Shown: piece after piece, positions 1,955 through 61,285 of the stretch
Position numbering within the stretch: the first letter of the stretch is position 1
How the letters are laid out: every line of letters starts with the position of its first letter
Assembly: GCF_014349155.1 (NCBI RefSeq)
Contig: NZ_JACSIT010000135.1
Location: 1 to 64,000, forward strand
Reading direction: 5' to 3'
Source of the DNA: Neolewinella lacunae
GTDB taxonomy: Bacteria > Bacteroidota > Bacteroidia > Chitinophagales > Saprospiraceae
Length of the DNA: 64,000 bases
Position numbers and translations under genes: made by a program
The notes under the pieces: model-generated
Told to the model about the DNA's origin: nothing
The model's input: only the letters and a program-made list of their open reading frames with translations
Databases searched by the model: none

Positions 1955-3166
1955 TTAGTGCAGGCGGCGTACGGTGGTTGCGGCGCCGATGTGGAAATCA
2001 GTGGGGTGGCTGCCCTCCAGGTTTTGGAGAACGAGAAGACCGGGCGTCTTGCCTGGCTCCAGACTACCCAGGTCGGCGGCAAAGCCCAAAGCTTCAGCCC
2101 CATTGAGGGTGGCCCAGGTGAGTAAGGTATCGAATGGGACGTAGCTCTGGAACTTACTGATCGTACGCAATTCTTCCAGGATGGAGAGTTGCCAATTGGA
2201 GGTCAGAGAGTCGGTCCCGACGGTAACTTTGGCGTTTTCGGCGAGGAAAAGCGCGTAGCGGGGCAAGCGGTTTTCGATGTACAGGTTGGCGTTGGGGCAG
2301 GTGGCCCAGAATACGCCGTCTTGGCCCCAGGCACTGGCCGCCCGGATGCCTTCGGCCGTCGTCAGGGTATTGTGAACGAAAAGGGTACGGTTGCGGGGGT
2401 CCATGCGGCGCAGGGCGTGAAAAATAGAGCCCTGGCCGGTGGCAGCGAAGTGCTCCAGGCTGGCGCCAAAGCCTTCGAAAAAGGGAAGGAAAGGGCCGGT
2501 GCCCGTTCGGAAAAGTTCCTCTTCTGCCTCGGTTTCCTGGTTGTGGATGGAGACGGTGCCTTGGCCTCCATTGAGGGCATTGATCAGGTCATAGAGGGGA
2601 TCGGAAACGGTGTAAGGGGCGTGGGGTACGGCTGTTTTGGCGTTGCCGCTTTCTGCGCCAGCCTGTCCTTCGTAGACGGGCAGGTAGCCGTCGTAGCTCG
2701 CCGCCGCACGGCTGGGCTGCAGAAAGTCAAACATCTCCACGAAGCTGTGGTAGCGGATGGGGCTGCGGCGTTTGACGGCGGCGGTATCGAGCTTATTGCA
2801 GATGTCGCCCACCGCCTGGATGCCATTTTCCCACATCAGGGCGTCCTGTTTTTCGATGGCTGCATCGATCTCCTCCTGGGGCATTTCGCGCATGGTTACT
2901 ACGTCGATCAGGAAGGGGAGCAGCGTCTTACCGGTCTGGCTTTTGCCCGCCAGGTGGCTCAGTTCGAGGTGACAGTGGGTATTGATGAAGCCGGGAATGA
3001 GTATGCCGGCGTGTTTTTGGGGCGCGGTCGCAGGTGCAGTGAACGCTGGGTCAGCCGGGTCTTGTACGCTCACAACCTGGCCCTGGGCGTCAATGCCAAC
3101 GATGCCTCCCTTGATGGGCGGAGCAGCAATGGGGTAGCAGTAATCGGCGGTATGAAAGGTTACCAT
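1955..3166 (-). CDS. Amidohydrolase family protein (deaminase-like)
   Basis: The product is 403 residues. It shows the metal-dependent amidohydrolase barrel: [14 protein letters not shown] near 59-72 (His64-x-His66 metal ligands), [22 protein letters not shown] and VGTDSLTSN, the last supplying the conserved Asp. Family members deaminate or dechlorinate ring compounds; the closest look is to the cytosine/S-adenosylhomocysteine/aminofutalosine deaminase branch, but the substrate cannot be read from sequence. The ATG at 3166 is preferred over longer in-frame starts, which would run into the trehalase gene on the other strand. No signal peptide, so cytoplasmic. It converges on DUF4407 and diverges from the trehalase. 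Confidence 0.8.
3020..3037 (-). repeat. Dispersed 18-bp motif, ACC variant, inside the amidohydrolase
   Basis: GCACCTGCGACCGCGCCC on the minus strand, about 130 bp into the gene and in the same direction. It encodes A-P-A-T-A-P within the N-terminal beta domain. Confidence 0.55.
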
Positions 3167-3275
3167 GGGGGGCGGGGATAAAAGCAAAAGGAGGGGATTC
3201 GCAAGCAAATTGGCAGCGACCCGGGCAAATGTCCTTACTTTAGCCCAATTCCGTACTGAATAAGTAGTTTTTCTG

Positions 3276-4907
3276 ATGCAAAAGAATGGATTTTCCCCGC
3301 GCCTGGGGTGGGGGCTAATGCTGGGTGTACTGTTCCTGGGCCAGGGCTGTGACCCGGAGCCGTCGCACCTGGCCGTATTGACTTCCCTGGCACCTGCGGC
3401 CGCGCCCACGGCCACGCTCCAGCGTCAGGCACCGGATGAGCTCTTCGGCGAACTCTTCCGCCGCGTGCAAATGGAACGGGTGTTTGCCGACGGCAAGACC
3501 TTCGTAGACATGATACCCAAGGCCGAACCCAGCGAAATAATGGGCGCCTACGCCGCGGCCAAAGACCTGCCGGGCTTTAATCTCAAGGCTTTTGTGGAGC
3601 AGTATTTCGCGCCCCCCGCCCAGCCCGAAAGCGGGTTTGTGAGCGACAGCACGCGGGACATCGCGGACCACATCAACGCCCTTTGGCCCTACCTGACCCG
3701 CCGCGCGGGCGCCGACGAAGGTGCCGCCGGCAGCCTCATCCCCCTGCCCAATGACTACGTCGTTCCCGGCGGCCGCTTCCGCGAGGTGTACTACTGGGAC
3801 AGCTACTTCACCCTGCTCGGCCTGCAAACGGCGGGCCGCAATGACCTCGTGCGCGACATGGTAGAGAACTTCGCCTTCCTAATCGACAAGGTCGGGCACG
3901 TACCCAACGGCAACCGGACGTACTACCTCACCCGCTCGCAACCGCCGTTTTTTGCCCTCATGGTGGAAGTCCTGGCCGAAATCGAAGGGGAGGAAGTGTA
4001 CGCCGAATTCATGCCCCAGCTGATCAGCGAGCACCAGTACTGGATGCAGGGGGCGGCGGACCTGACCCCCAAGCAGCGGGCCAGTAACCACAGCGTCTTA
4101 CTGGGCGACGGCAGCATCCTCAACCGTTATTACGACGCCGGAGACCGTCCCCGCGCCGAGAGTTACCGCGAAGATGTGCTCACCATCCGGGAAAGTGGCC
4201 GCGACAGCCAACTGGTGGCCCGCCACCTGCGCTCGGGGGCAGAATCCGGCTGGGATTATTCCGCCCGCTGGTTTGCCGACGGTGAAAATATTGCCTCCAT
4301 CGTTACGACCGATATCCTGCCGCCGGACCTCAACAGCTTGCTGTGGAAACTCGAACAGGTGATCAGCGAGCACCACCCCGACGAAACAACGGCTACCAAG
4401 TACACCCGCCTGGCCAGCAAACGCGCCGCAGCCATCGATAAATTCCTCTGGAACCCCCTGAGCCGCTACTACGAAGACTACAACTGGACCACCGGCCAAC
4501 ACACCGGCTACCTCACCCTGGCGGGTACCTACCCGTTTTTTGTCGGTTTGGCGCCGCAGGAATACGTCGAGACCGTCGGCAACCGCCTGAGTAAAGACTT
4601 CCTCGGTCCCGGTGGCTTGCGGACCTCCCTCCAACGTACGGGCCAGCAGTGGGATGCGCCCAATGGCTGGCCGCCCCTGCAGTGGATGGCCTATAAGGGG
4701 ATGCTCGACTACGGCCGTATTGCGCTGGCTTTGGAGATCAAGAACCGCTGGATGAAAAACAACCAGCGGGTGTACGCCAACGTGCAGAAGATGGTCGAAA
4801 AATACAACGTCGAAGACATCAGCCTCCTGGCCGGCGGCGGGGAGTATCCCGTGCAAGACGGCTTTGGTTGGAGCAACGGCGTGTACCTGCGGATGACGGC
4901 GGAGTAA
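3276..4907 (+). CDS. treA: Periplasmic or lipoprotein alpha,alpha-trehalase (GH37)
   Basis: The product is 543 residues. The N terminus is a lipoprotein signal ending LGQGC (Cys25), so the enzyme is probably anchored outside the inner membrane. Both GH37 signatures are present: [15 protein letters not shown] at 164-178 and [12 protein letters not shown] at about 458-469. The Gly-rich [17 protein letters not shown] stretch lies near the C terminus. Asp327 in SGWDYSARW corresponds to the family's catalytic acid. Trehalases hydrolyse trehalose to two glucose molecules, feeding glycolysis or osmolyte recycling. Length is normal for the family. A copy of the dispersed 18-bp motif lies in the linker just after the lipobox. 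The gene converges tightly on the next symporter (6 bp between stops). Confidence 0.93.
3390..3407 (+). repeat. Dispersed 18-bp motif inside the trehalase leader region
   Basis: Exact GCACCTGCGGCCGCGCCC, co-oriented with the gene and about 115 bp after its start. It encodes A-P-A-A-A-P in the low-complexity linker after the lipobox. Confidence 0.8.
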
Positions 4908-8739: not shown

Positions 8740-11700
8740 ATGCGCAATTTTCTTGCCTTTCTGCTGCTTGTCGCAACGACGGCCGCCTTTGCCCAGTCGC
8801 CCCTGTACTTTCCTAGTGATCCGGCCTTGACGCCCGACGGCAAGCACATCGTATTTGCCTATTCGGGCGACCTCTGGAAAGTCGCCACGGCGGGTGGTCG
8901 GGCGGATCGCCTGACGGCCTTGGACGGCGCGGAGAGCCACCCCCGGATTTCGCCCGATGGCAAATGGCTCGCCTTCAGCGCCGCCCAGTACGGCAACGAC
9001 GACGTGTACGTAACTTCGCTGGAAGGCGGCCCGATCCGGCAGCTCACCTTCCACGATGCCAACGACCAGGTGGCCAACTGGAGCTGGGACAGCCAAACCA
9101 TTTACTTCGCCAGCAATCGCTACAACCGGGGCACTACCTTCGGCGTATCCCGCACCGGCGGCACCCCCGTGCGGCAGTTCGAGCACTACTTCAATACCAT
9201 CCACAACGTAGCGCCGCACCCGAAGACCGGAGAATTTTACTTCAACGAAAGCTGGGAGAGCAGCATTTTTGCCCACCGCCGGGGTTACCGCGGGCCGTTT
9301 AACCCGGATATAAAGTCGTTCGACGCCCAGCGCACCAAAGTAACCAAGCACACCGCGTGGGAAGGCAAAGACCTCTGGCCCATGATCGACCGGGCGGGGA
9401 AGGTCTACTTCGTCTCCGACCGCGATAACGATACTTACAACCTCTACCTGCTGGAGGGGAAGGTACCCAAGCCCCTGACCAAATTCCCCACTTCGGTCTT
9501 TACGCCTTCGATCAGCGCCGACGGGCAGCAGATCGTGTTCGTGCGCGACTACCAACTGGAGATCTACGATGTAGCCACGGGGAAATCCCGGCGCGTCTCC
9601 ATCGAGCTGAACGCCTTCCCGGGGCTGGTCAAAACAAAAGACTTCAACACGGACGGTAAACTGGAGGCTTTTGACGTGGCCCGCGATGGTAAGAAGATTG
9701 CTTTCGTGTCCCGTGGCTCCCTCTTCGTTTCCGATGCCGAAGGCAAATTCATCCAGCAAGTTCCCACGGGCGAAGAACGGGTGGCGGAGGTCCGCTGGCT
9801 CAAAGATGACCGGACCCTCCTCTTCACCCAAACCCTGGGGGGCTACCAGAACCTCTACACCGTTTTGGCCGACGGCAGCGCCGCGCCCGTCCGGCGCACC
9901 AACGATACGCGCAACAACCGCGGGCTCGAAATCAGCAAAGACAGCAGCCGCGTCGTGTACCTGAGCGGACGCGACGAAGTACGGGTAATGGACCTCAACG
10001 ACTTCAGCGTCCAGACCGTCGCCAAACAGGAAATCTGGGCCTTCCAGAACAGCCTGCCGCGGTGGTCGCCCGACGATCGCTACATCCTCTTTACGGGCTA
10101 CCTGGATTTTGAGCAGGACCTCTTTTTGGTCGATACCAAAGCGGGTAATCGCCTGATCAACCTGACGAATACCGGCGTGACGGAGGCCGACCCGGTGTGG
10201 TCTCCCGACGGCAAATACATCTACTTCACCTCCGCGCGCCACCAGCCGAATTACCCCCGGGGTGGGGGAGAGGTCAACCTCTACCGCCTGCCCCTGAAGG
10301 CCTTCGACGCGCCTTACGCGGGCGAGAAGTTCAGCAGCCTGTTTGCGGATGAGGAAAAAGGGAAAGGCAAGAAGGACAGTGTGGTGGTGGAAATCGACTT
10401 CGCCAACCTGATGGAGCGCATGGAGACGGTGGGGCCGCGTTTTGGCACCCAATCGGGCCCCTTTGTGGTAAAAGACGGTGCCAAGACGGTGGTGTTGTAC
10501 GGCTCCGACCACGCGGAGGGCAAAACCCTGCTGTACAAGACGGTCTATGAGGACTTCGAAGCACCAAAGACCGAACTGATCAAAGGCAGTGGGGTGGGCA
10601 ACGCTACGGATCTGGTGACGGCCAAGGGCAAGCACTACGTTCTGGGGGGCGGCAAATTGCAGCAGATTGACCTGAGCCAGAACAAGTTAAACCCGACCGA
10701 GCTCAAGCATACTTTCCGGCGCAACCTCGCGGCGGAATTCCGGCAGATGTACTACGAGACCTGGGCCAATTTGGAGGAAAATTTCTACTCAGAAGACTTC
10801 CACGGCGTCGATTGGCCGGCTCTGCGCGACCGTTACGCGGCCTACCTGCCGCACCTGACCAACCGCGCCGATCTGCGGCGGCTGACCAACGACCTGCTGG
10901 GGGAGTTGAACACGTCGCACTTTGGCTTCAACAGCTCCGGCAGCGAGGAGCGGACTACGGATCGGGCGCAGAGCCTGGCCCTGGGGCTGGAATTTTCGGC
11001 CACTGACCCTTACCTCATCACGGGCATTATTGCCGATGGACCCGCGGACCGTGCGGGCATCGACCTGCGGCCGGGCGATCGGCTGGTGGCCATCGACGGG
11101 GAGCGGATTGACCCTACGCGCAACCGCGAGGCTTACCTGAGTCGGCCGAGTGTAGATAAAGAAGTGGCGCTGACGCAGGTGCGGGGAACGGTGGAAAGCA
11201 TTGTTCGTCTCCACCCCACGACTACCGCCGAAGAGCGCAATCACCGCTACGACGCCTGGGTGGACGACTGCCAGCGGCGCGTGGACGAGCAAACGGAACA
11301 ACGGGTGGCCTACATCCACATGAAAAACATGGGCGGCGGCGAGCTCGACAACTTCCTCAACGAAATGGTCTCCGAAGGTCACCGGCGGGATGCGCTGATT
11401 CTGGACCTCCGCTACAACACGGGCGGCAACGTCCACGATGCGGTATTGCAATTCCTCCAGCAAAAACCTTACCTCCGTTGGAAGTACCGGGGCGGGGCCG
11501 CCGCTGCGCAGCCCAACTTTGCCCCCAGCGCCAAGCCCATCGTCCTGCTCATCAACGAGCAAAGCCTCTCCGACGCCGAAATGACCACCGAAGGCTTCAA
11601 GCAACTGGGGCTGGGGACGGTCATGGGCACCCCCACTTACCGCTGGATCATTTTCACTTCCGGCAAAGGGCTCGTCGACGGCTCCTTCTACCGTCTGCCC

Positions 11701-11853
11701 AGCTGGGGGTGCTATGCCCTCGACGGCAGGAACCTCGAAAAAACCGGTGTGGAACCCGACATCCGCATCGACAACACCGCCGCAGACCGGCAGGCGGGCC
11801 GTGACCCCCAGCTTGATGCCGCCATCCGGGAAGTGTTGCGGCAGTTGAAGTAA
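8740..11853 (+). CDS. Tricorn-type protease, S41 family, secreted
   Basis: The product is 1037 residues. A Sec signal (MRNFLAFLLL...AFA|Q, about 19 residues) is followed by repeated WD40/PD40-like blades such as LTPDGKHIVFAYSGDLW and ISPDGKWLAFSA. A second propeller region, a PDZ domain near 743-790 (ADGPADRAGIDLRPGDRL) and a C-terminal S41 peptidase domain follow. Ser944 in SLSDAE sits where the tricorn nucleophile lies, with TYRWIIFTSG and the GVEPDI end also typical. Tricorn proteases finish peptide breakdown; Bacteroidota copies with a signal peptide probably work in the periplasm. The ATG at 8740 is chosen because it begins the signal peptide; longer in-frame starts add a non-signal leader. 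Length is close to tricorn. Confidence 0.92.
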   Translation: MRNFLAFLLLVATTAAFAQSPLYFPSDPALTPDGKHIVFAYSGDLWKVATAGGRADRLTALDGAESHPRISPDGKWLAFSAAQYGNDDVYVTSLEGGPIRQLTFHDANDQVANWSWDSQTIYFASNRYNRGTTFGVSRTGGTPVRQFEHYFNTIHNVAPHPKTGEFYFNESWESSIFAHRRGYRGPFNPDIKSFDAQRTKVTKHTAWEGKDLWPMIDRAGKVYFVSDRDNDTYNLYLLEGKVPKPLTKFPTSVFTPSISADGQQIVFVRDYQLEIYDVATGKSRRVSIELNAFPGLVKTKDFNTDGKLEAFDVARDGKKIAFVSRGSLFVSDAEGKFIQQVPTGEERVAEVRWLKDDRTLLFTQTLGGYQNLYTVLADGSAAPVRRTNDTRNNRGLEISKDSSRVVYLSGRDEVRVMDLNDFSVQTVAKQEIWAFQNSLPRWSPDDRYILFTGYLDFEQDLFLVDTKAGNRLINLTNTGVTEADPVWSPDGKYIYFTSARHQPNYPRGGGEVNLYRLPLKAFDAPYAGEKFSSLFADEEKGKGKKDSVVVEIDFANLMERMETVGPRFGTQSGPFVVKDGAKTVVLYGSDHAEGKTLLYKTVYEDFEAPKTELIKGSGVGNATDLVTAKGKHYVLGGGKLQQIDLSQNKLNPTELKHTFRRNLAAEFRQMYYETWANLEENFYSEDFHGVDWPALRDRYAAYLPHLTNRADLRRLTNDLLGELNTSHFGFNSSGSEERTTDRAQSLALGLEFSATDPYLITGIIADGPADRAGIDLRPGDRLVAIDGERIDPTRNREAYLSRPSVDKEVALTQVRGTVESIVRLHPTTTAEERNHRYDAWVDDCQRRVDEQTEQRVAYIHMKNMGGGELDNFLNEMVSEGHRRDALILDLRYNTGGNVHDAVLQFLQQKPYLRWKYRGGAAAAQPNFAPSAKPIVLLINEQSLSDAEMTTEGFKQLGLGTVMGTPTYRWIIFTSGKGLVDGSFYRLPSWGCYALDGRNLEKTGVEPDIRIDNTAADRQAGRDPQLDAAIREVLRQLK

Positions 11854-12822: not shown

Positions 12823-12980
12823 GAGTGAGTGAATGCGTGAATGATTGAATGCGTGAATGGCTACCGCATGCGACTGGCTACCGCACAGGATTTGCCGCCG
12901 CAGGGGATAAGCTGCCGCAGACTGTTCACATAGGTGTCTGGCGAAAACTATGAACTATGAACTATGAACTACTACACGGG
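12823..12980 (+). repeat. Short-repeat patch (GAATGGCTACCGCA family and CTATGAACTA repeats)
   Basis: GTGAATGCGTGAATG units lead into GAATGGCTACCGCA (12855-12868) and a second GGCTACCGCA copy. GCCGCCGCAGG/GCTGCCGCAG pieces follow, then three tandem AACTATGA units around 12946-12973. The family recurs at 16034, 16250 (inverted) and 56579. The rest of the 12821-13159 gap holds only the 18-bp motif listed separately. Confidence 0.6.
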
Positions 12981-13011
12981 GCGTCCTTCCCTGCTCTTTA
13001 GTCCTCGCCTG

Positions 13012-13029
13012 GCACCTGCGGCCGCGCCC
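13012..13029 (+). repeat. Dispersed 18-bp motif upstream of the repeat-protein gene
   Basis: Exact GCACCTGCGGCCGCGCCC, same direction as the gene at 13160 and 130 bp before its ATG. Preceded by TCCCTGCTCTTTAGTCC, which resembles the left flank of other copies. Confidence 0.85.
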
Positions 13030-13159
13030 CGCTGACCAGGCTCCGCACAATAATCAGCGGGTGGTGTTCATTAAAGTGCTCGTTGGAAAGCTAACTTCGG
13101 CCCCGGGAATTTCCGCCCGCCACTTTCTACCGACACGAATGACCAGCAACACGCGATTT

Positions 13160-13978
13160 ATGTACCGACTACTCTTTTTTCTACTGGCTGCATCCACCTC
13201 CTGGGGCGTATTTGCCCAGCAATTTACGGGAATCTACCAGCCCTCCGACGCCGAAGTGCGGCAGGTGACGGTGGGCGGCTGGGAGGCTTTCCTGGCCGAG
13301 CACAAGCGCCAAAACCAGGCAGGATTTCGCCTGCGGGACCTGGAGACCTACAAACAAGGCGGCGATGACCGTAAGTACGTGGGCCTCTACTCTGAGAGTC
13401 CACTGATTGACTCGGTGGGCAAGGCCAGCAGTTGGACCGAATTCATCAAAATGAAGCGGGACATGGTAAAGGCGGGCTACACGATGGTGGACATCGCGGC
13501 CGTGGTGCTCAACGAACGCGACTACGATTTTTACGGGGTTTGGGTGAAAGAAGCTCACCCCACGATTCACAAAGTCTGGTTGCTCGAAAGCCGTGAAAGC
13601 ATTGAGAAAAGGACCACCATCATGGCCAAAGACCGCTTTAAGATCAAGCGCGTTCACGTCTTGAACATCCCCAATGGCGAACCATCTTTCGTGGTGCTGT
13701 ACCATTTTTCACCGATTGACCGCTTTAACTTTTTGTACTTCGCCGACGATCTGGAGACTTTCCGGCAGGAACGGGACGAGCGGCGGCGCAGTAAAGTGGA
13801 GCTTATCGACTTCGACCGTTACCGGGAAGGGGACAAAACCGCCTACGTAGCCATTTTTCAGGACGGGGAATACGACAGCGAATTCATCTCCGGCGTCTCC
13901 ATCGAAACCATTAACGAGCAGGCACGGGCGCTGGAAAAAAGCCGGGGGCTGAAGTTGACCAACCTGAGCGTGGATTAG
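13160..13978 (+). CDS. Secreted protein of about 50-residue tandem repeats
   Basis: The product is 272 residues with a clear signal peptide (MYRLLFFLLAAST...VFAQ). The rest divides into four repeats of about 50 residues plus a partial fifth. Each starts with a Trp/Glu helix (WEAFLAEHKRQNQAG, WTEFIKMKRDMVKAG, ETFRQERDERRRSK), then a hydrophobic strand such as GYTMVDIAAV, and ends in a Tyr/Trp strand (KYVGLYSES, FYGVWVKEA, FVVLYHFSP, AYVAIFQDG). The pattern resembles the 'bacterial tandem repeat domain 1' family, but that match is from memory. The ATG at 13160 is chosen because it begins the signal; another lies 21 bp upstream. Function unknown. Confidence 0.65.
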   Translation: MYRLLFFLLAASTSWGVFAQQFTGIYQPSDAEVRQVTVGGWEAFLAEHKRQNQAGFRLRDLETYKQGGDDRKYVGLYSESPLIDSVGKASSWTEFIKMKRDMVKAGYTMVDIAAVVLNERDYDFYGVWVKEAHPTIHKVWLLESRESIEKRTTIMAKDRFKIKRVHVLNIPNGEPSFVVLYHFSPIDRFNFLYFADDLETFRQERDERRRSKVELIDFDRYREGDKTAYVAIFQDGEYDSEFISGVSIETINEQARALEKSRGLKLTNLSVD

Positions 13979-17264: not shown

Positions 17265-18467
<1,203 letters not shown>

Positions 18468-18603
18468 GCGCTGGGGTTGTGAATTTGGGCGAAGGTAAGG
18501 AGCCCGCACGGAAATTGAAGCCTCCGGGCACTAATCTGTCGGATTTTGCGCTTCTGCCCTCGCCGCACCAGGTGTAGCGTAACCATTTTTCCGTTGTGTA
18601 TTG

Positions 18604-18652
18604 GGGCGCGGACGCAGGTGCTCCCCCCCGGCCCCCCAAAGGGGGGAGACAG
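18604..18652 (-). repeat. 18-bp motif (TCC variant) joined to C-run/G-run hairpin
   Basis: GCACCTGCGTCCGCGCCC on the minus strand (18604-18621), pointing towards sucC 136 bp away. It is joined to TCCCCCCCGGCCCCCC-AAA-GGGGGG on the plus strand, a strong hairpin. The divergent space 18468-18789 holds no other recognised feature. Confidence 0.75.
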
Positions 18653-18789
18653 GACAATGAGCAAGGTGCCTGACAAACTTTCGCATTCCCGGAGAATCTT
18701 CCACCCACAGGCCACGTTTATCATCACCTTTGTGTCTACATCCCGAGAGCGCACCCCCGTGGGTGGCATTTGAGCGCCCAACCAAGTGT

Positions 18790-21222: not shown

Positions 21223-21283
21223 CTTGCTGCTCCCCCGGTGGGGGTTGGGGGGCGTTCCTGCCCCGGCACCTGCGGCCGCGCCA
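21223..21283 (+). repeat. C/G-run hairpin joined to the 18-bp motif
   Basis: TGCTGCTCCCCCGGTGGGGG with GGTTGGGGGG runs leads into GCACCTGCGGCCGCGCCA (21266-21283, one mismatch to the exact motif). It points towards the lipoprotein gene 71 bp downstream. Confidence 0.7.
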
Positions 21284-29372: not shown

Positions 29373-30674
29373 TTATTGCTTCTGGTAACAAACTTCTACG
29401 TACTGCTCGCCTTTGGTGGGGGCAAGCACCGTCCGTGCCCAAAACAAATGCTCCCCCAACCGCGCCAGCTTTGGGAAGCCTGATCCCCGCGCTGCCGAGG
29501 TCTCGGCCAGGATCTGCCGCCGTACTTCGCCGCTGCTACTGACTGTAAAAAGGGTAAGTTGGGCCGCATCTGCTTGCTGGGAAGTGCACAGGGCCGTCAC
29601 GTAGGCCGTGCCATCTTCTTCCAGGCGCAAATCCAGGCGGCCCAGCGGGTTGGCCGCATCGAGCACTGTAGGTAAGCCAAAACGACCCGCCGCAGGTTCA
29701 TACCGGGCAAACTGAATCCGGGGATTGTCCTCCGCTCCCGTATACCAGGCGATGGCAAATTGACCCGCCGCATTGGCTCCCAGGGCCGGGCCATTGACAG
29801 GGCAACCCTTAATTTCCCAGTTATCGGCCGCCACCAGCTTGGGGGTGGACCAGTCGCCAGGGGCTGTGGTGGGGCGGGTGACGTAGGCGATGTCCCGGAT
29901 TTCGTGTTCGGAGCGGTCGCGGTAGGCCACCATTACCAGGTCCCGACTGGCGGCCGTGGCGGTGTTGCAACAGTCACAGACACGATTATCCAGCGCTACA
30001 CTTCCACTGTCGGTCAAAGTCCTGGCCCGCAGCGTCATTGCTCCGCCGTGGGCGTGGTCTTCACTTTGCTCCTTGTCCGCTGACCCTGCACCTGCGGCCG
30101 CGCCCGTACCCAATTTGGTGAAGCGCCCGTCCAGCCAGGCCAACTGTAAATCACCGTCTGGCAAGGGTGCTGCCGACAAAAAGCCGTGCTCGGCCCGGAC
30201 CGTATCGCCGTGCAATTTTCCCCGCAGCAGGGCCGACGGACCCGCCAATGCGCCCACGCCGTAATGGATGTCGTAATCGTAAGTACCCGCGCCGGAGTAG
30301 CGCCGCCAGTGAAAAAAGTATTCGTCCGCCCCGTAAAAGGCCACGCCGGGGTGATCCGCCCAGTTGATGAACCAGTCGGTACCGCTCGCCAGATCCTGCA
30401 CTTTCTGCAGGCCCTCGGGCGCTACCTCGAACAGTTGCAAAGTATCGGCCTGCTCCTTTGCCGCTTGCAGGACGGAAAGGAAAAGACGTTCATTCCCCTC
30501 CCCAAAATCGGGCAGGTGGGTACCCGCTGGCAACCGATAGCACTGCGGTGCTGCTTGCGTTGCAACCCGCTCTCCACAACCACCGAGCAAGAGGGGCAAG
30601 AGCGCCCACCACCGCAGTTTCAGGAGATGGCCGCTAAGTTTTTGGCTCCGCCCGGCGGAAAGGAATTGCGCCAT
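29373..30674 (-). CDS. Sialidase-like (BNR-type) lipoprotein
   Basis: The product is 433 residues. The start has a Lys/Arg-rich n-region, then WWALLPLLLGGC (lipobox at the Cys). The body is a repeated beta-blade protein in which VCDCCNTATAASRDLVMVAYRDR is reminiscent of sialidase-like proteins with a CDCC motif; catalytic residues cannot be placed with certainty. The start codon overlaps the stop of the upstream isomerase gene by one base (TGATG), so the two are translationally coupled. An intact 18-bp motif with its TTGCTCCTTGTCC flank lies in frame inside it, giving a Gly/Ala-rich loop (GTGAAAGAGSADKEQSED) that may be an insertion. Confidence 0.7.
   Translation of the reverse strand: MAQFLSAGRSQKLSGHLLKLRWWALLPLLLGGCGERVATQAAPQCYRLPAGTHLPDFGEGNERLFLSVLQAAKEQADTLQLFEVAPEGLQKVQDLASGTDWFINWADHPGVAFYGADEYFFHWRRYSGAGTYDYDIHYGVGALAGPSALLRGKLHGDTVRAEHGFLSAAPLPDGDLQLAWLDGRFTKLGTGAAAGAGSADKEQSEDHAHGGAMTLRARTLTDSGSVALDNRVCDCCNTATAASRDLVMVAYRDRSEHEIRDIAYVTRPTTAPGDWSTPKLVAADNWEIKGCPVNGPALGANAAGQFAIAWYTGAEDNPRIQFARYEPAAGRFGLPTVLDAANPLGRLDLRLEEDGTAYVTALCTSQQADAAQLTLFTVSSSGEVRRQILAETSAARGSGFPKLARLGEHLFWARTVLAPTKGEQYVEVCYQKQ
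30088..30105 (+). repeat. Dispersed 18-bp motif inside the sialidase-like gene
   Basis: Exact GCACCTGCGGCCGCGCCC, antisense to the gene and the only strict non-convergent copy not co-oriented with its host. Preceded on the plus strand by TTGCTCCTTGTCC, a flank shared with intergenic copies. Confidence 0.85.
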
Positions 30675-31729
30675 CAGCTCAAACCGAGGATTTTACGGTT
30701 CGTAGCAGCGTCCGTACCGGCGTCGGCAAAATCATCGAATGCGCGTTCGGTAACCTCAATGAGGTGACTGCTGATGAAAGGAGCCCCTTCGGCCGCGCCC
30801 TGGGCACTGGATTTGATGGCACATTCCCACTCCAGGACCGCCCAGCCGCCGTAGTTGTACTGGCTGAGCTTGGAGAAAATGGCCTTGAAGTCCACCTGCC
30901 CGTCGCCGAGGCTGCGGAAGCGCCCGGCCCGTTCCGTCCATCCTGCGTAGCCGGAGTAGACGCCCTGGCGACCGCTGGGGTTGAATTCAGCGTCTTTGAC
31001 GTGGAAGGCGCAGATGCGCTCGTGGTAGATGTCGATAAAAGACAGGTAATCGAGGCACTGGAGGACAAAGTGGCTGGGGTCGTAGTTGATCTGGGCGCGG
31101 GGGTGGCCGTCCACGGCCGCTACGAAGCGCTCGAAGCTGGTGCCGTCGAAGAGGTCTTCGCCGGGGTGGAGTTCGTAGCCGACGTCCACGCCACATTCAT
31201 CGAAGGCATCCAGGATCGGCTTCCAGCGTTTGGCCAGCTCACCGAAGGCTTCCTCCACCAGTCCTGCGGGCCGTTGTGGCCAGGGGTAGAGGTAGGGCCA
31301 CAGGAGCGCACCGGAGAAGGTCGGGTGGGCGGTGAGGCCCAGGTTTTGGCTGGCCTTGGCGTTCCACTTAAGCTGTTGGGTGGCCCACTCCTGGGTGGCC
31401 TGGGCGTTGCCCGCCACGGCTTGGGGGGCAAAGCCCTCGTACATTTTCTGGTAGGCGGGGTGGGTGGCCACCAGCTGTCCCTGGAGGTGGCTGGCCAGTT
31501 CCGTGATCGTCAGGCCATGGTCGGCAATGCGGCCTTTTAGCTCATCGCAGTAGGTCTTGGAAGTGGCGGCTTTTTCGAGATCGATCAGGCGGGCGTCCCA
31601 GGTTGGAATCTGAATACCCTTGTAGCCCAACCCGGCCATGTAGCGGCAAATATCGTCGAGGTTGTTGAAAGGGGCTTCGTCGCCCATGAATTGGGCCAGA
31701 AAAATGGCGGGTCCCTGAATGGTCTTCAT
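30674..31729 (-). CDS. Sugar phosphate isomerase/epimerase family protein
   Basis: The product is 351 residues with the xylose-isomerase-like TIM barrel plan: GLGYKGIQIPTWD early, LTITELASHLQGQ, DVGYELHPGEDLFDGTSFERF (metal-binding Glu and His), AQINYDPSHFVLQ, ICAFHVKDAEF and AVLEWECAIK. The acids and histidines sit where the family binds its divalent metal. Members isomerise or epimerise sugars, inositols or keto-sugars; the substrate is unknown. It is translationally coupled to the sialidase-like lipoprotein (TGATG) and follows the RibF fusion by 99 bp on the same strand. Cytoplasmic. Confidence 0.88.
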   Translation of the reverse strand: MKTIQGPAIFLAQFMGDEAPFNNLDDICRYMAGLGYKGIQIPTWDARLIDLEKAATSKTYCDELKGRIADHGLTITELASHLQGQLVATHPAYQKMYEGFAPQAVAGNAQATQEWATQQLKWNAKASQNLGLTAHPTFSGALLWPYLYPWPQRPAGLVEEAFGELAKRWKPILDAFDECGVDVGYELHPGEDLFDGTSFERFVAAVDGHPRAQINYDPSHFVLQCLDYLSFIDIYHERICAFHVKDAEFNPSGRQGVYSGYAGWTERAGRFRSLGDGQVDFKAIFSKLSQYNYGGWAVLEWECAIKSSAQGAAEGAPFISSHLIEVTERAFDDFADAGTDAATNRKILGLS

Positions 31730-33908: not shown

Positions 33909-33926
33909 GGGCGCTGACGCAGGTGC
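33909..33926 (-). repeat. Dispersed 18-bp motif, TCA variant, upstream of ribF
   Basis: GCACCTGCGTCAGCGCCC on the minus strand, 55 bp before the ribF start and co-oriented with it. The rest of the ribF-carB gap (33854-34072) holds no gene. Confidence 0.8.
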
Positions 33927-37053: not shown

Positions 37054-37071
37054 GGGCGCGGGCGCAGGTGC
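37054..37071 (-). repeat. Dispersed 18-bp motif, CCC variant, upstream of carB
   Basis: GCACCTGCGCCCGCGCCC on the minus strand, 143 bp before the carB start and co-oriented with it, in the divergent gap to the gene at 37205. Confidence 0.7.
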
Positions 37072-37819: not shown

Positions 37820-37864
37820 CTCCCCCTTTCGGGGGGTGGGGGGGGAGCACCTGCGGCCGCGCCC
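37820..37864 (+). repeat. C-run/G-run hairpin joined to the 18-bp motif (convergent gap)
   Basis: CTCCCCCTTTCGGGGGG plus a second G-run, then GCACCTGCGGCCGCGCCC (37847-37864, exact). It lies between the stops of the secreted-protein gene and recN and may end transcription from both sides. Confidence 0.8.
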
Positions 37865-41205: not shown

Positions 41206-41260
41206 GGGCGCGGCCGCAGGTGCTCCCCCCCCATCCCCCCCGAAGTGGGGGAGTTCGGAC
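41206..41260 (-). repeat. 18-bp motif joined to C-run/G-run hairpin (convergent gap)
   Basis: GCACCTGCGGCCGCGCCC on the minus strand (41206-41223, exact), followed on the plus strand by TGCTCCCCCCCCATCCCCCC, then CGAAGTGGGGGAGTTCGGAC. It lies between the convergent DUF368 and metalloprotease genes. Confidence 0.85.
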
Positions 41261-41376: not shown

Positions 41377-41402
41377 CGGCTTAACGGTGCCTGCGTGGTC
41401 CG

Positions 41403-42281
41403 CTAGTAAATGGTTTCCAGAGCGATGCGGTCGAAATTGCCGAACTCTCCGTCTTCGTTGCTGCCGAAGCAGGCGAGCATGATGGAGTTGGCGTCGTAGC
41501 CAGTCGGAGTTCCGGGGATGTGTACCGCTCCGGCAGAGCCAGCGGACTCGCCAGACTGTCCGCAAGACTGGCGGCTGAACCAATCGGTGTGGCGCAGGCC
41601 CATGCAGTGGCCAATCTCGTGCGTCATCACGTGCTCATTGACGTTGGTGTTGTAGGCTTCCATGCCACTGTAGATGGTTACCCATTTGTAGGGGTTGCCG
41701 CCGGAGGGGAAGCCCGCTACGCCACCCGCACCCTGGTTATTGGGGTCGCGGTACACTACGATGTCCGCATTGGTGCTGGAGGAGAAGGTGAGGGTAAACG
41801 TCTTGTTGGTATTCAGGGCATTGTAGTTGTCTACGGCCCACTGGAGAGCAGTGCGCATCTTCGTCGTCAGGGCATTGCTGCCACCGGTATAGCCAATCAC
41901 GCGAATGGTGGAGCGGCTTACCAGGTTATTGGTACGGTATTGCTTCTCCTGGGCAGGGCTCATCCCCTGGAACATGCGGAGGTCGTCCTTGGTGAGCTCA
42001 ATGTCTCCGTCTACGACGTAGCGGGTGTCGGTAGTGCCGTCCGGGCGGAGAATGTCCTTGCGTTCGGCGTCGAGGTAGTGTGCGGAAAGTCCCTCGGCGT
42101 GCGCCAGCAGGGCGTCGGCAAAGGGCACGTCGGGGAGGTTGGTATGGCCATCTTCATGCTCATCGTGGATGAAGCTGACGGAATAGTTGGTGTCTTCGGC
42201 GGGCTGGACGGCAGTGTCCTGGTTGCAGGCCGTGAAGGCGAGGAAGCCGCAAATAGCGGCACAGAAAGAAATTGGTTTCAT
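41403..42281 (-). CDS. HEIGH-type zinc metalloprotease lipoprotein (M57-like)
   Basis: The product is 292 residues. The lipoprotein signal MKPISFCAAICGFLAFTAC gives Cys19. The mature part has an Asp/Glu/His-rich head (FIHDEHEDGH), an early domain with DDLRMFQGMSPAQEKQYRTNNLV, and a zinc site HEIGHCMGLRH at 221-231 (His, His and His ligands, Glu222 catalytic). The family ('dual-action HEIGH metallo-peptidase') is secreted; its substrates are not known. After the zinc site comes a Ser/Gly/Cys segment and the end FDRIALETIY. The ATG at 42281 is chosen because the signal begins there. The next gene is more than 500 bp away. Confidence 0.85.
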   Translation of the reverse strand: MKPISFCAAICGFLAFTACNQDTAVQPAEDTNYSVSFIHDEHEDGHTNLPDVPFADALLAHAEGLSAHYLDAERKDILRPDGTTDTRYVVDGDIELTKDDLRMFQGMSPAQEKQYRTNNLVSRSTIRVIGYTGGSNALTTKMRTALQWAVDNYNALNTNKTFTLTFSSSTNADIVVYRDPNNQGAGGVAGFPSGGNPYKWVTIYSGMEAYNTNVNEHVMTHEIGHCMGLRHTDWFSRQSCGQSGESAGSAGAVHIPGTPTGYDANSIMLACFGSNEDGEFGNFDRIALETIY

Positions 42282-43102: not shown

Positions 43103-43120
43103 GCACCTGCGGCCGCGCCC
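43103..43120 (+). repeat. Dispersed 18-bp motif upstream of the 43247 lipoprotein
   Basis: Exact GCACCTGCGGCCGCGCCC, co-oriented with the gene and 126 bp before its ATG; preceded by TCGCTCCTTAGTCC. Confidence 0.85.
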
Positions 43121-48116: not shown

Positions 48117-49667
48117 CTATGGCCGCTTCGCCTCTTTAACCATTTCCCGCACGGCGGCGCGCAGCGCGACCGCGTCGTAGACAATGCCGTCCTTTACGGT
48201 GTAGATGATGCCCTTGGTGGTGGTGACCTCCCCGGCTTCATCCAGGCGGGTTGCGCCGGTACCGTAGAGGACTTTGAGGTCGGCCAATGGGTTTTCCCCG
48301 ACGATGACGAGGTCGGCCAGTTTCCCCGGCTCGATGGTGCCGATGAGGTCTTCCATTCCCAGCGCCTCGGCACCGTAGAGGGTGGCCGAGCGGATGACTT
48401 CCAATGGGTGGAAGCCCGCTTCGCGAAGCAGCTCCAGCTCGCGGATGTAACCGAAGCCGTAGAGTTGGTAGATAAAGCCCGAGTCGGAACCTGCCGTCAC
48501 GCGGCCGCCCCGGTTTTTGTACTCGTTGATGAAGGTCATCCAGAGTTGGTAATTTTTCTTCCAGTTGACTTCCTGCTCCGTACCCCACTGGTGCCAGTAG
48601 CTGCCGTGGCTGACGCGGCTGGGCTGGTAAAACTTCCAGAGACTGGGCAGGGTGTACTCGGCGTGCCAGTCGGCGTTGCGGGCCCGCATGACGTCGCGGT
48701 TGGCGTCGTAGATATTGAAGGTGGGGTTGATGGTGAAGTCCAGGTCCAGCAGTTCATTCATCACCGCGTTCCAGTGGTCGCTGTAGGGGGCGGCCGCTTG
48801 CTCCCAGAGGCGGCCGGCCTCGCCGAAGCGGTCTTGCTCGTTTTGGTAGTTGTAGTCGACGGGGTAATCCTGCACCGTCCGGTCGTTGAACAGCGCCTCG
48901 GGCAATCCGTACCAGTGTTCCATAGAGGTCAGTCCCGCCCGGGCGGATTTGAGTACGTTCCAGCGGCCTACGTCCATCTGCGCGTGGTGGCAGGCGGAGC
49001 CGAGGCCAATTTCCTTGTTGGTTTCCAGGGCGGCTTGCATCAGATCGGGGCGGGCACCGAAAAATTTGATGCCGTCGCTGCCCTTGGCCTTATTGGCGCG
49101 CACCCATTCGCGGACTTGCTCGGTGGTGGTAAAGGGCTCCTCGCGGCCCATCCCGAAGCCGGTGTAGGCCACGATCCGGGGGGCGGCGATGGCGTTGCTC
49201 GCCGAGCGTTTTTTGTGATCGAGCACCCAGTCCAGGCCGTTGAAACTGCCGGGTTCGCGGATGGTGGTGATGCCGTGGCTGAGCCAGAGTTTAAAAACGT
49301 AGTCGGCATCCGCCCCCTGCGCTCTGCCGCCGATGTGGCCGTGCATGTCCACAAAACCGGGCAGGACGTACATGCCCGCGCAGTCGATTTCCTTACCGCC
49401 CGCCTTTAGTTTGGGACGGCCGTTGGGGTTGATCTCCATGTCCGGCACGCCTACGGTGCTGGTGCTGACGATCTTGTTGCCCTCAATGACGATGTCCACC
49501 GGCCCAATGGGCGGCGCGCAGTTGCCATTGATCAGGGTCAGGCCCCGCAAAATAAGCTGGGGGTGGGGGCCGTCGCCCACGTCGCCACGGTCCGGCGCTT
49601 TCCGGACTTGGGCGCTGACGCAGGTGCCAAGGAAAAGGACAAAAAAGCAGAGTAGGTACTTACGCAT
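48117..49667 (-). CDS. Secreted amidohydrolase family protein
   Basis: The product is 516 residues with a signal peptide (MRKYLLCFFVLFLGTCVSAQ). The metal-dependent barrel shows GFVDMHGHIGGRA (His-x-His), a Lys-containing middle strand, ACHHAQMDVGRW and VTAGSDSGF (Asp), then LGMEDLIGTIEPGKLADLVIV, the usual small beta domain. Bacteroidota copies with a signal are often called imidazolonepropionase-like or prolidase-like; the substrate is open. The ATG at 49667 begins the signal. The 18-bp motif (TCA variant) encodes the T-C-V-S-A part of its signal cleavage region. It is first in a likely pair with the GH3 gene. Confidence 0.85.
   Translation of the reverse strand: MRKYLLCFFVLFLGTCVSAQVRKAPDRGDVGDGPHPQLILRGLTLINGNCAPPIGPVDIVIEGNKIVSTSTVGVPDMEINPNGRPKLKAGGKEIDCAGMYVLPGFVDMHGHIGGRAQGADADYVFKLWLSHGITTIREPGSFNGLDWVLDHKKRSASNAIAAPRIVAYTGFGMGREEPFTTTEQVREWVRANKAKGSDGIKFFGARPDLMQAALETNKEIGLGSACHHAQMDVGRWNVLKSARAGLTSMEHWYGLPEALFNDRTVQDYPVDYNYQNEQDRFGEAGRLWEQAAAPYSDHWNAVMNELLDLDFTINPTFNIYDANRDVMRARNADWHAEYTLPSLWKFYQPSRVSHGSYWHQWGTEQEVNWKKNYQLWMTFINEYKNRGGRVTAGSDSGFIYQLYGFGYIRELELLREAGFHPLEVIRSATLYGAEALGMEDLIGTIEPGKLADLVIVGENPLADLKVLYGTGATRLDEAGEVTTTKGIIYTVKDGIVYDAVALRAAVREMVKEAKRP
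49610..49627 (-). repeat. 18-bp motif, TCA variant, in a signal-peptide coding region
   Basis: GCACCTGCGTCAGCGCCC on the minus strand, co-oriented, 40 bp into the gene; it encodes the T-C-V-S-A of the signal cleavage zone. Confidence 0.7.
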
Positions 49668-51942: not shown

Positions 51943-52637
51943 TCCTTACCTTGCTTCTGGTGGGCGGACTTTGCACCTGCGTCAGCGCCCAATTTACCGG
52001 CGGCGATAATTATAACTTCTACGATTTTCAGGCCAAGCCCTTCTACTTTGGCCTTACGCTGGGCTTCAACTCCAGCCGTTACACACCCTTTCGAAGTGAA
52101 GAATTTCTGTTCTCCGATACGATCGTTTCGGTGAAGAGCCTCAACGGGCCGGGCTTCAACCTCAACATGATTGCCAACCTGAAGATTGGGCAGTACTTTG
52201 ATTTTCGCTTCACGCCGGGCTTCAGTTTTGCCGAGCGGCGGCTGAACTACGACCTCAACGCCCGCTCGAACCGCGAAATTGAAGAGTCGATCCAGTCGGT
52301 CTTCGTAGAACTTCCCTTCCTGTTCCGTTACAAATCGGCACCCTACCGCGATAAGCGCCTGTTCCTGATCGCGGGTGTGAAATACAGCTTCGACGTGGCC
52401 AGCGAAAGCCGGGCCAAGCAAGCCGAGAGCCTGGTACGGATCAGTCCCCACGATTTTCATCTGGAATACGGCGCGGGCATTCAGATTTTCTTCGATTACT
52501 TCATCTTTTCGCCCGAATTCAAGATCAGCCAAGGCATTGGCAACACCCTGCTTTTCAACCCCAATCTACCGCAGAGTACGGTGCTGGATAAGGTGTTGAG
52601 CCGGACTTTTACGCTGTCTTTTCACATCGAGGGGTAA
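51891..52637 (+). CDS. porT: PorT family outer-membrane protein of the T9SS
   Basis: The product is 248 residues. The start MQSINFRHRVHLYGRK is a basic n-region followed by VVLTLLLVGGLCTCVSAQ, a signal peptide. The rest is an eight-strand type beta barrel with alternating residues (FYFGLTLGFNSSRYTPFRSE, FNLNMIANLKIGQYFDFRFTPGF, VFVELPFLFRYKSAPY, YGAGIQIFFDYFIFSPEFKISQG) and ends FTLSFHIEG. PorT is required for type IX secretion, fitting the sorting domain at the window's left edge. The ATG at 51891 lies inside menG; no better start is seen, since later in-frame start codons would remove the signal. Confidence 0.88.
   Translation: MQSINFRHRVHLYGRKVVLTLLLVGGLCTCVSAQFTGGDNYNFYDFQAKPFYFGLTLGFNSSRYTPFRSEEFLFSDTIVSVKSLNGPGFNLNMIANLKIGQYFDFRFTPGFSFAERRLNYDLNARSNREIEESIQSVFVELPFLFRYKSAPYRDKRLFLIAGVKYSFDVASESRAKQAESLVRISPHDFHLEYGAGIQIFFDYFIFSPEFKISQGIGNTLLFNPNLPQSTVLDKVLSRTFTLSFHIEG
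51973..51990 (+). repeat. 18-bp motif, TCA variant, in the porT signal peptide
   Basis: GCACCTGCGTCAGCGCCC, co-oriented, 82 bp into porT; it encodes T-C-V-S-A of the cleavage zone, in the same frame as in the 49667 gene. Confidence 0.7.
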
Positions 52638-59446: not shown

Positions 59447-61210
59447 ATGGGTTCCTTTTCGCTTTCTAACGTCGATTTGATAGTTATGGCGGTCTACGCC
59501 GTGTGCATTATTGGCTATGGCTTGTACAGTGCCAAGGCCCAGAGTTCGGAAGAGTACTTTTTGGCGGGCCGGAACATGACCTGGCCCATCGTGGGCATTT
59601 CCCTGTTTGCCGCCAATATTTCCAGTTCAACCCTGGTGGGTCTGGCCGGTGATGCCTACAAAACCAACACCCAGGTGTTCAACTACGAGTGGCTGGCGGC
59701 AGTGGTGCTGGTGTTTTTTGCCATCTTTTTTCTGCCGTTTTACCTCAAGTCGCAGGTCTATACCATGCCCGAGTTTCTGGAGCGGCGCTACGACGTGCGT
59801 TCCCGCTACTATTTCAGCTTCATTACCATCGTGGGCAACGTCATGCTGGACACCGCCTCGGGCCTTTACGTGGGTACCGTGATCCTCAAACTGCTGTTTC
59901 CCGACCTTTCCACGGCGGCCATTGTGGTTATCCTGGCCATCGCTGCGGCGGCCTACACGGTTCCCGGCGGGCTCAACTCGGTCATCCAAACGGAAGTCAT
60001 CCAGGCCATTTTGCTGGTCCTGGGCAGTTGTATGATTACCTACTACACCTTCCAGGAAATCGGGGGCTGGAACCAGATGATTGCCGGGCTCAACGAGATG
60101 GGCGCAGCCGGCACCCTGCCCGATAATGGCGCGGCTTATCAACCCAGTAACGCCGAGGAAGTGCTCAGTTTGGTCCGACCGGCGGGGGATACCTGGCGGG
60201 AGTTTTTGCTGGGCACCGGTGGCGATGGCTTTATGCCCTGGACGGGCCTGCTGCTGGGCGCTCCGCTGCTGGGCTTTTACTTCTGGGCCAATAACCAGTT
60301 TATGGTCCAGCGCGTGCTGGGGGCCAAAGACCTCAACCACGGCCGCTGGGGAGCGCTCTTCGCCGGTTTACTGAAACTGCCGGTACTGTTCATCATGGTG
60401 CTGCCCGGCACGGCGGCCATCATCTACATCCAGCAGCAGGGCGGCATGGAAAATGGCTTCGACATCGCCAGCATGAACTACCAACTGCCCGGCGGCGGCT
60501 ACTGCCAAAACCTGATCGATTGCCCCAACGCCACTTACCCCATGCTGCTCTTCCAGATGCTGCCCAACGGTATCGTTGGCCTGGTGCTGGCGGGCCTCCT
60601 GGCGGCGATGATGTCTTCCGTCTCCGCTACCTTCAATTCGGCGTCGACGCTCATTACCATGGACTTCGCCGTAAAAATCAAGCCCGACCTCAGCAGCAAA
60701 CAGCTCGTCCGTGTCGGGCAGATCTCCACCCTGGTGCTCGTCATTCTGGCTTGCCTCTGGGCTCCGCAGATAGAGCGCTACAGCTCGCTCTGGGAATATT
60801 TGCAACTGGTCCTCAGCTTCATCGCGCCGCCGGTTGCTGCGGCCTTTATTCTGGGGATGTTCTGGCGGCGTGCCAACGGTACCGGTGCCTTCATTTCCCT
60901 GCTGTCCGGGGCCGCCGTGAGCATCATCTACCTCCTGATGGTGCGGTGGGAAGCCGACAATTGGTTCACGGAAATGCACTTTCTCCACCGGACCTTCTAC
61001 CTCTTCGTCTTCTGCGGCCTGATCAACTTTATCGTCAGTTCCCTCACCCCCGCTCCCGCCCCGGAAAAGGTAAATGGTTTCACCTGGAACCGCAGCCTGA
61101 TCAAGGAGGAAACGGAGGAACTTTCCGTACTGCCCTGGTACAAAAACTACCGCATCCAGGCGGTTTTCCTGCTCATCATCACCTTCCTGCTGGTAGGCTG
61201 GTTCTGGTAA
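59447..61210 (+). CDS. Sodium/solute symporter (SSS family, SGLT-like)
   Basis: The product is 587 residues with about 14 spans. It starts NVDLIVMAVYAVCIIGYGLYSAKAQSSEEYFLAGRNMTWPIVG, the SGLT-like N terminus. It continues with ISSSTLVGLAGDAY (sodium-site Ser/Thr) and AAYTVPGGLNSVIQTEVIQAILLVLG, near the sugar-binding span. The last domain is hydrophobic with a short Lys/Glu loop. The look is of a sugar rather than amino acid carrier, but the substrate is inferred only. It diverges from the SMP-30 operon, which could process the same class of sugar. Confidence 0.9.
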   Translation: MGSFSLSNVDLIVMAVYAVCIIGYGLYSAKAQSSEEYFLAGRNMTWPIVGISLFAANISSSTLVGLAGDAYKTNTQVFNYEWLAAVVLVFFAIFFLPFYLKSQVYTMPEFLERRYDVRSRYYFSFITIVGNVMLDTASGLYVGTVILKLLFPDLSTAAIVVILAIAAAAYTVPGGLNSVIQTEVIQAILLVLGSCMITYYTFQEIGGWNQMIAGLNEMGAAGTLPDNGAAYQPSNAEEVLSLVRPAGDTWREFLLGTGGDGFMPWTGLLLGAPLLGFYFWANNQFMVQRVLGAKDLNHGRWGALFAGLLKLPVLFIMVLPGTAAIIYIQQQGGMENGFDIASMNYQLPGGGYCQNLIDCPNATYPMLLFQMLPNGIVGLVLAGLLAAMMSSVSATFNSASTLITMDFAVKIKPDLSSKQLVRVGQISTLVLVILACLWAPQIERYSSLWEYLQLVLSFIAPPVAAAFILGMFWRRANGTGAFISLLSGAAVSIIYLLMVRWEADNWFTEMHFLHRTFYLFVFCGLINFIVSSLTPAPAPEKVNGFTWNRSLIKEETEELSVLPWYKNYRIQAVFLLIITFLLVGWFW

Positions 61211-61228
61211 GGATCACTTTTTTAAGCA

Positions 61229-61285
61229 GGGCGCGGCCGCAGGTGCTCCCCCCCGACCCCCCGAAGGGGGGAGTTAGGACGCCCC
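61229..61285 (-). repeat. 18-bp motif joined to C-run/G-run hairpin (convergent gap)
   Basis: GCACCTGCGGCCGCGCCC on the minus strand (61229-61246, exact), then on the plus strand CTCCCCCCCGACCCCCCGAA and GGGGGGAGTTAGGAC, followed by a second, similar C/G-run hairpin to about 61305. It sits between the stops of the symporter and the next lipoprotein gene. Confidence 0.85.

Follow-up and report, generated by a model that had tools for sequence, protein, structure and literature searches.

A dispersed two-part motif in Neolewinella genomes that may act like a DNA uptake sequence

The uptake-specificity motifs described in the available excerpts of the cited papers belong to two families of Proteobacteria and have a link to type IV pili. 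Traits reported in such excerpts for the uptake signal sequence (USS) of the Pasteurellaceae and the DNA uptake sequence (DUS) of the Neisseriaceae include strand-balanced abundance, conservation in place, location at permissive sites, close copies in inverted orientation and dialects in step with phylogeny (PMC2397512, PMC3630211, PMC12616744, PMC2346458). The subject of this analysis is a dispersed motif with the core GCACCTGCGNNNGCGCCC in a stretch of 64,000 nucleotides from Neolewinella lacunae (contig NZ_JACSIT010000135.1, positions 1 to 64,000; hereafter the window), of which an earlier note, made from the letters of the window, had listed 14 copies. It is proposed here, at a probability of roughly 0.47, that the element is a self-recognition motif similar to an uptake signal, which would be bound by a putative receptor and would work like a DNA uptake sequence.

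The Pasteurellaceae USS is similar in several respects. It too numbers hundreds to thousands of copies, is discontinuous, with a core and weaker segments about two helical turns away, and has types that follow phylogeny (PMC12616744, excerpts), and its copies lie both in genes and in gaps (PMC2346458, excerpts); the discontinuous, helically phased layout of the Neolewinella element appears to resemble the USS in particular. The letters of the two are unrelated, however, the USS core has 9 bp whereas the core here has 18 bp, the second USS segment is downstream and AT-rich whereas the Neolewinella box is upstream and pyrimidine-rich, the two occur in different phyla, and pilins were not found here. 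The Neisseriaceae DUS shares dialects congruent with the core-genome tree (PMC3630211, excerpts), close inverted pairs and permissive positions (PMC2397512, excerpts), but according to the excerpts it is continuous, up to ~13 nt long and read by the minor pilin ComP (PMC12616744), whereas no type IV pilin was found in this case; its reported lack in newly acquired DNA, too, is seen in only a weak form here. By eye, GCACCTGCGNNNGCGCCC also differs from the DUS and USS words ATGCCGTCTGAA and AAGTGCGGT given in the excerpts (PMC2346458, PMC12616744). Because the pilus route is a defining feature of DUS and USS, and was looked for and not encountered, the element is not classed as either.

Within the same phylum, excerpts of work on Riemerella report that its transformation requires ComEC, DprA, ComF, RecA and several unknown proteins (PMC8459023) and that Riemerella columbina, a member of the Bacteroidota, prefers its own DNA (PMC7965970). 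ComEC, DprA and a preference for self DNA are points of likeness to the case proposed here; the excerpts of these two papers report no uptake motif, which is a point of difference. Open-licence and partial listings of the literature yielded no such motif for Lewinella, Saprospiraceae or Bacteroidota, and a partial listing yielded no paper on competence in Neolewinella.

A dispersed repeat with a core, an upstream box and lineage versions

The window is C117:1-64000 in the numbering used here, and its genome (G000) comprises 5.8 Mb in 154 contigs. All 14 copies of the earlier note were located on the strands it gave, 13 as exact matches to GCACCTGCGNNNGCGCCC and one, at 21266, with a single mismatch; the commonest 18-mer, GCACCTGCGGCCGCGCCC, accounts for seven of them (3390, 13012, 30088, 37847, 41206, 43103 and 61229). 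At up to two mismatches the window contains 17 matches, whereas 100 dinucleotide-preserving shuffles average 0.54 and never exceed 4. Across the whole genome, 1,248 copies have no more than one mismatch, 615 of them forward and 633 reverse, against 5 (0 forward and 5 reverse) for a control in which the pattern was read backwards. The shuffles and this control rule out chance and codon usage, the latter named in the earlier note as a possible refutation, and the motif is a real dispersed repeat, far beyond chance.

High copy numbers are confined to one genus among the 40 genomes searched, with 4 to 1,263 copies per genome in the 21 that belong to the genus of the window (its own included) and 0-5 copies in each of 19 genomes of other genera. 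In named genomes the exact 18-mer was found at at least 80 loci, 70 of them in Neolewinella, Lewinella or other Saprospiraceae/Bacteroidia assemblies and 10, with a single match each, in scattered other taxa; some of these loci may overlap in species with the numbered genomes. A scan of the genome contigs with a composite pattern gave no match. A de novo k-mer search found no comparable motif in four genomes of other genera (G021-G024), where samples of 7-60 kb each are too small to exclude one, and in small samples of some congeners it was swamped by tandem repeats.

An alignment of 108 copies defines a sharp core, GCACCTGCG[G/T]C[C/A]GCGCC[C], with upstream flanks that are pyrimidine-rich and A-poor and downstream flanks that are almost featureless. 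The upstream part often contains a second element, a box like TTGCTCCTT, present in about half of the sampled copies, which starts mostly 19-22 bp before the core (exactly 21 bp in 24 of 149 copies, with at most 3 per position in a downstream control). Within 17-24 bp upstream, 79 of 162 cores in G000 have the box, as do 62 of 140 from the named loci and, in nine further congeners, 28 of 50. When this 8-position window was compared with an equal one downstream, the counts were 77 versus 22 of 160, 59 versus 8 of 136, and 28 versus 9 of 50 in the same three sets. The core described earlier as an 18-bp motif is thus upheld, and the element as a whole is longer than that description. In samples of versions B and C of the word, introduced below, a second box was not evident, so the two-part layout is demonstrated for version A only.

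In 29 of 149 copies in G000, a hairpin similar to C6-TTCG-G6-NN-G7 lies between box and core and places the box 42-43 bp upstream of the core instead of about 21. These distances of 21 and 42 bp nearly equal two and four turns of the helix, and the spacing thus suggests that the site is recognised as double-stranded DNA on one face. This hairpin form was seen only in G000 and was absent from all 140 cores of the 80 named loci and all 50 cores of nine congeners. Stretches that carry it resemble one another at 89-95% over 59-80 bases, 34 of the 49 C-run/G-run hairpins in 712 kb are immediately followed by a core, and in a typed example, whose fold reaches -32 kcal/mol, the box pairs with the first bases of the core.

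The word also differs between lineages, and three versions are distinguished: version A, the main word with the GCACCTGCGNNNGCGCCC core; version B, CYGCGCNCCGCCGCCC; and version C, TTGCTACTTTGNNNGCCMAA, from genome G010. Version C has 392 copies in G010 at up to one mismatch and 0 in the other 20 genomes of the genus. Version B has 482 copies each in G001 and G006, 176-254 in G012, G020, G016, G004 and G017, and 3-134 in the remaining genomes (38 in G000), the patterns for versions A and B being of unequal length. In a tree of carB from the 21 congeners, G010 branches first and the rest group together (93/97); a nine-genome clade (99/99) contains G001 and G006, with almost only version B, five mixed genomes, and G011 and G008, with mostly the main word; and the other eleven form a second clade of modest support (80/89) that includes G000 and the highest main-word counts, G015 being intermediate. 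The three versions broadly sort with this single-gene tree, in which the key fork has 80/89 support and several genomes are mixed.

Other repeats were noticed alongside the motif. Tandem AACTATGAACTATGAAC-type repeats occur at about 12950-13000 of the window and elsewhere in the genome, and TATGAACTA is among the most over-represented 9-mers in the sampled genome. At loci L213 and L214 (G002, contig C27), overlapping 12-mers with 16-17 copies each in 40 kb together spell GTCTTAATCCTTCTTGTGATGGAT, possibly a repeat array.

Placement, spacing and conservation of the copies

The matches in the window are listed below by position and strand.

3020..3037, minus strand: core copy in gene 1955-3166(-), 129 nt from the called start, in frame A-P-A-T-A-P
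3390..3407, plus strand: core copy (commonest 18-mer) in trehalase gene 3276-4907(+), 114 nt from the called start
3707..3724, minus strand: near copy with 1 mismatch, probably chance; by eye it lacks a box upstream
11165..11182, minus strand: near copy with 1 mismatch, antisense within gene 8740-11853(+)
13012..13029, plus strand: core copy (commonest 18-mer) that follows a TGCTCT box and lies upstream of gene 13139-13978(+)
18604..18621, minus strand: hairpin form (box, C6/G6 hairpin, core) in divergent gap 18467-18790
21266..21283, plus strand: core copy with 1 mismatch, C5/G5 hairpin before the core, upstream of gene 21355(+)
30088..30105, plus strand: core copy (commonest 18-mer) with box TTGCTCCTTGTCC, antisense within gene 29373-30674(-)
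30783..30800, plus strand: near copy with 2 mismatches, probably chance
33909..33926, minus strand: core copy 55 bp upstream of gene 31829-33853(-), with FAD synthetase / riboflavin kinase domains
37054..37071, minus strand: core copy 29 bp upstream of carB (34073-37024, -)
37847..37864, plus strand: hairpin form (commonest 18-mer) in convergent gap 37786-37876, in a stretch that recurs in the genome at 89-95% over 59-80 bases
41206..41223, minus strand: hairpin form (commonest 18-mer) with a variant hairpin in the flank, in convergent gap 41173-41403
43103..43120, plus strand: core copy (commonest 18-mer) with box CGCTCCTTAGTCC, upstream of gene 43247(+)
49610..49627, minus strand: core copy encoding the end of predicted signal peptide MRKYLLCFFVLFLGTCVSAQ in amidohydrolase gene 48117-49667(-)
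51973..51990, plus strand: core copy encoding ..LCTCVSAQ, the end of a predicted signal peptide, in outer-membrane beta-barrel gene 51960-52637(+)
61229..61246, minus strand: hairpin form (commonest 18-mer) with two tandem hairpins, in convergent gap 61210-61320

The open frame at 31832-33853 combines FAD synthetase, riboflavin kinase and family 2 glycosyltransferase domains and looks like an unusual fusion.

Gene context was scored for 149 copies in 711,696 bp of the 5.8-Mb genome, with genes called by a simple codon-bias finder that places starts only approximately. Although 22% of this sample is intergenic, 100 of the 149 copies lie outside genes, and the others lie within them in sense (27) or antisense (22) orientation. 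Among the intergenic copies, 30 run with and 22 against co-oriented genes; divergent gaps contain 25, convergent gaps 19 and the ends of stretches 4.

The earlier note had described the motif as oriented with gene starts. This holds in the window, where, by the gene calls of the present analysis, three copies lie in convergent gaps (37847, 41206 and 61229) and 10 of the other 11 run with a gene that starts within 150 bp, the exception (30088) being antisense within a gene. In the wider sample the preference is weak: gaps between co-oriented genes show none that is clear (30 versus 22, P = 0.33), and the 41 copies with and 15 against a gene that starts within 150 bp downstream become 41 versus 23 (P = 0.033) after correction for the length of the upstream half. 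Of the copies just inside gene starts, 17 run with and 2 against the gene, and these are largely signal peptides. TAnnTTTG boxes are enriched 20-29 bp downstream of the core (5 versus 0.3 expected) and likewise at 100-109 bp (4).

These orientation counts and boxes are what would be expected of a transcription signal, whether a promoter-proximal regulator site, a leader or a terminator, but such a role is very improbable. The boxes accompany few of 144 copies, on which ground a general promoter element was rejected; the convergent-gap, antisense and sense-in-gene copies (19, 22 and 27 of 149) would have to be accommodated; and ~1,200 sites seem far more than a regulon would have. The RNA leader raised in the earlier note finds no backing either, since an Rfam search of the window gave no match and copies are found in antisense orientation, between convergent genes and within coding sequence. 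As a separate observation, several version-B or mixed copies at L201, L204, L205, L211 and L232 (from G006, G001, G004 and G017) lie shortly before a TATCTTTG promoter-like box.

Part of the coding copies encode the ends of predicted signal peptides. Fifteen of the sense copies are no more than 50 nt from a predicted start, and 12 of the 15 are in one frame. In an independent scan, 12 of 142 copies read in sense give a predicted signal peptide that ends ..T-C-[VGD]-[SR]-A before Q in that frame, with 2 in other frames and 3 of 142 in an antisense control; two of the 12 are the window copies at 49610 and 51973. The motif is present in 9 of the 107 N-termini of the sample that resemble signal peptides under a crude rule. 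This bias towards one frame, and the single copies of the G010 and G017 versions that can be read by eye as an ..A-Q end, would fit an origin in which DNA coding ..T-C-V-S-A before Q spread from genes for secreted proteins. That origin is very hard to credit, given that two-thirds of the copies are intergenic, on either strand, that the core letters are kept in non-coding copies, and that signal-peptide copies number 0 of 19 for version B in G001 and 1 doubtful of 22 in G006 (control 2 of 23) and 1 of 13, in another frame, in G010; G001 comes close to being a species that has the full number of motifs and no signal-peptide copies.

Copies are more regularly spaced than chance. For 110 copies on five contigs, the coefficient of variation of inter-copy gaps is 0.79, against 1.08 (95% range 0.91-1.29) for random placement with the same intergenic share, and 4 gaps exceed 10 kb against 12.4 (8-17) expected (2,000 permutations). 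Close pairs (<300 bp) are inverted in 12 of 12 cases over all stretches (P = 0.0005) and in 9 of 9 on joined contigs. Neighbouring copies on the unordered contigs switch orientation freely, with 34 of 116 pairs alike, and a replication-oriented motif therefore seems unlikely. The regular spacing could instead arise if the element were bound by a chromosome-organising or nucleoid-associated protein that depends on evenly distributed sites, with protein and site co-evolving between clades, an explanation that would also accommodate the phased two-part site of version A, the conservation in place described below and the broad agreement of the versions with the carB tree. It is nevertheless quite unlikely: strictly inverted close pairs are not something it specifically predicts, and the free switching of neighbours is unlike motifs that direct replication.

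The relation to atypical genes was approached by ranking each gap according to whichever of its two neighbours had the lower coding score, a low score being only a proxy for foreign origin. Copies occur in 10 of 71 gaps in the lowest fifth and in 77 of 288 of the rest (P = 0.03), or in 7 of 48 versus 66 of 263 when only gaps <500 bp are counted (P = 0.14). The motif-free stretches give an anecdotal picture. One, C22 126-146 kb, contains genes with low coding scores, among them a Schlafen-group helicase and a MazG-like gene, and in addition a gene that encodes a type IX secretion domain; the others contain ordinary genes, including a 2,000-aa frame without a Pfam match. Within the former, L048 10344-16788 (G000 C22, ~130-137 kb), also motif-free and of low coding scores, encodes a Schlafen-group helicase/S24 peptidase, a MazG-like protein and a TPR protein, and looks like an acquired or defence island.

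Orthologous sites were compared between congeners; the carB of the window genome is 78-82% identical to that of the 20 congeners, none of which is a close relative. Between G009 and G002, all 6 G009 copies have a gap-free counterpart, with core identities of 13, 17, 18, 17, 17 and 16 of 18, and an inverted pair (80 bp start to start) is kept in both. Between G003 and G007, two copies are clearly common (18/18 and 17/18), one G003 copy aligns badly, and opposite the G007 copy at 15159 the G003 sequence has a 38-column gap, the flanks of which align poorly. Between G016 and G012, which have 16 and 15 loose matches, many of them apparently chance coding hits, an inverted pair is kept with 18/18 in both cores, one core is kept at 17/18 with a 19-bp length change just upstream, and one G016 copy has only 10/18 in G012, with no gap. 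At alignable orthologous sites the core is thus mostly kept and changes by substitution. Pooled identities are 85% for the core, a figure biased by the sites having been found through the core, and 68% for both the 28 bp upstream and the flanks.

High-copy intergenic repeats of the REP and REPIN types, some in inverted pairs, are associated with RAYT transposases. The Neolewinella element shares with them many intergenic copies, some inverted pairs and, in G000, a hairpin form, and the very short mobile repeat suggested in the earlier note is a serious rival, above all for that form. Under this explanation a miniature mobile repeat (REP-like or MITE-like) was copied through the genus, with the hairpin form as the version active in G000 and its enzyme encoded elsewhere. 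The mutual resemblance of the hairpin-form stretches, the position of most such hairpins directly before a core, the strong fold of the typed example, the restriction of the form to one genome and the G007 copy opposite a gap all agree with it. Most copies lack a strong hairpin, however, the aligned ones mostly stay put at orthologous loci and differ by substitution rather than block insertion, some encode predicted signal peptides in one frame, and regular spacing would be unexpected of a transposon. Nor does the REP transposase family PF01797 track copy number: there is none in G018, which has 1,034 copies, and the two weak matches in G000 have no core or hairpin in the 3 kb around each, so that a RAYT-driven REP was rejected. 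A mobile repeat is, on balance, unlikely, and similarity to DUS and USS fits the observations better than a mobile repeat or a promoter element does.

Uptake as a possible function

The proposal of an uptake-like motif can be set out as a mechanism. A surface or periplasmic receptor would bind a double-stranded, two-part site that consists of the TTGCTCCTT box, about two helical turns, and the GCACCTGCGNNNGCGCCC core, and naturally competent cells would preferentially import DNA of their own kind through this binding. Repeated uptake and recombination would then accumulate and maintain copies where they do little harm, namely in gaps, inverted pairs, Ala-Pro linkers and signal peptides, and shifts in receptor specificity between lineages would give rise to clade-specific versions of the word. 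What has been observed is the abundance, the layout of version A, the spacing, the inversion of close pairs, the lineage versions, the conservation in place at most sites of small samples and the genes for ComEC and DprA; from these we infer a binding protein, competence and biased uptake. All 21 congeners have ComEC, and 20 of them have DprA, which is missing only from a genome that is 55% complete. A minor pilin similar to ComP is an improbable receptor, given that the search for type IV pilins gave none. The more specific idea of a pilus-free recognition of self DNA in Bacteroidota, with a two-part site read at two or, with the hairpin insert, four helical turns, is put forward tentatively, as somewhat less probable than not.

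Several results weigh against an uptake-like function. With regard to machinery, ComEC and DprA are widespread and no proof alone; the type IV pilin N-methylation motif (PF07963) was found in 0 of 21 congeners, with 8 of 14 control genomes positive; and convincing PilB/PilT proteins were not found in the 21 congeners, where matches to PF00437 are short and fall mostly in profile positions 139-222 of 370. These matches have E values of 1e-5 or weaker, exceed the cut-off by less than 1 bit in 11 of 21 genomes and, in these 11, lie in frames of 943-1,074 aa, which are taken for another ATPase. With regard to the copies, five of ten in G002 have no match in the single G009 contig, and 2 of 5 in G003 and 4 of 7 in G007 lack a usable counterpart; the region of the upstream box is no better kept than the flanks in the pooled alignments, which are small samples, count most orthologous pairs twice and include the chance coding matches of G016 and G012. 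Close pairs are no commoner than chance (9 versus 13.4 expected), a mild excess of copies oriented with a gene upstream of its start persists after correction for length, and, a low coding score being only a proxy, the scarcity beside atypical genes is weak and a hint only. The hairpin form, which looks like recent copying of a ~65-bp unit in G000 only, is the main loose end and is explained neither by the uptake model nor by the transposase search.

If the element does act as an uptake-like motif, changes of dialect between clades would channel gene exchange within lineages, and the putative envelope protein that binds it would be the first non-pilin receptor of an uptake motif. The diverged versions in the 21 genomes would constitute a ready set for finding this receptor by co-variation. 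An independent, pilin-free case in another phylum would show that self-recognition in gene exchange has evolved repeatedly, by different machinery.

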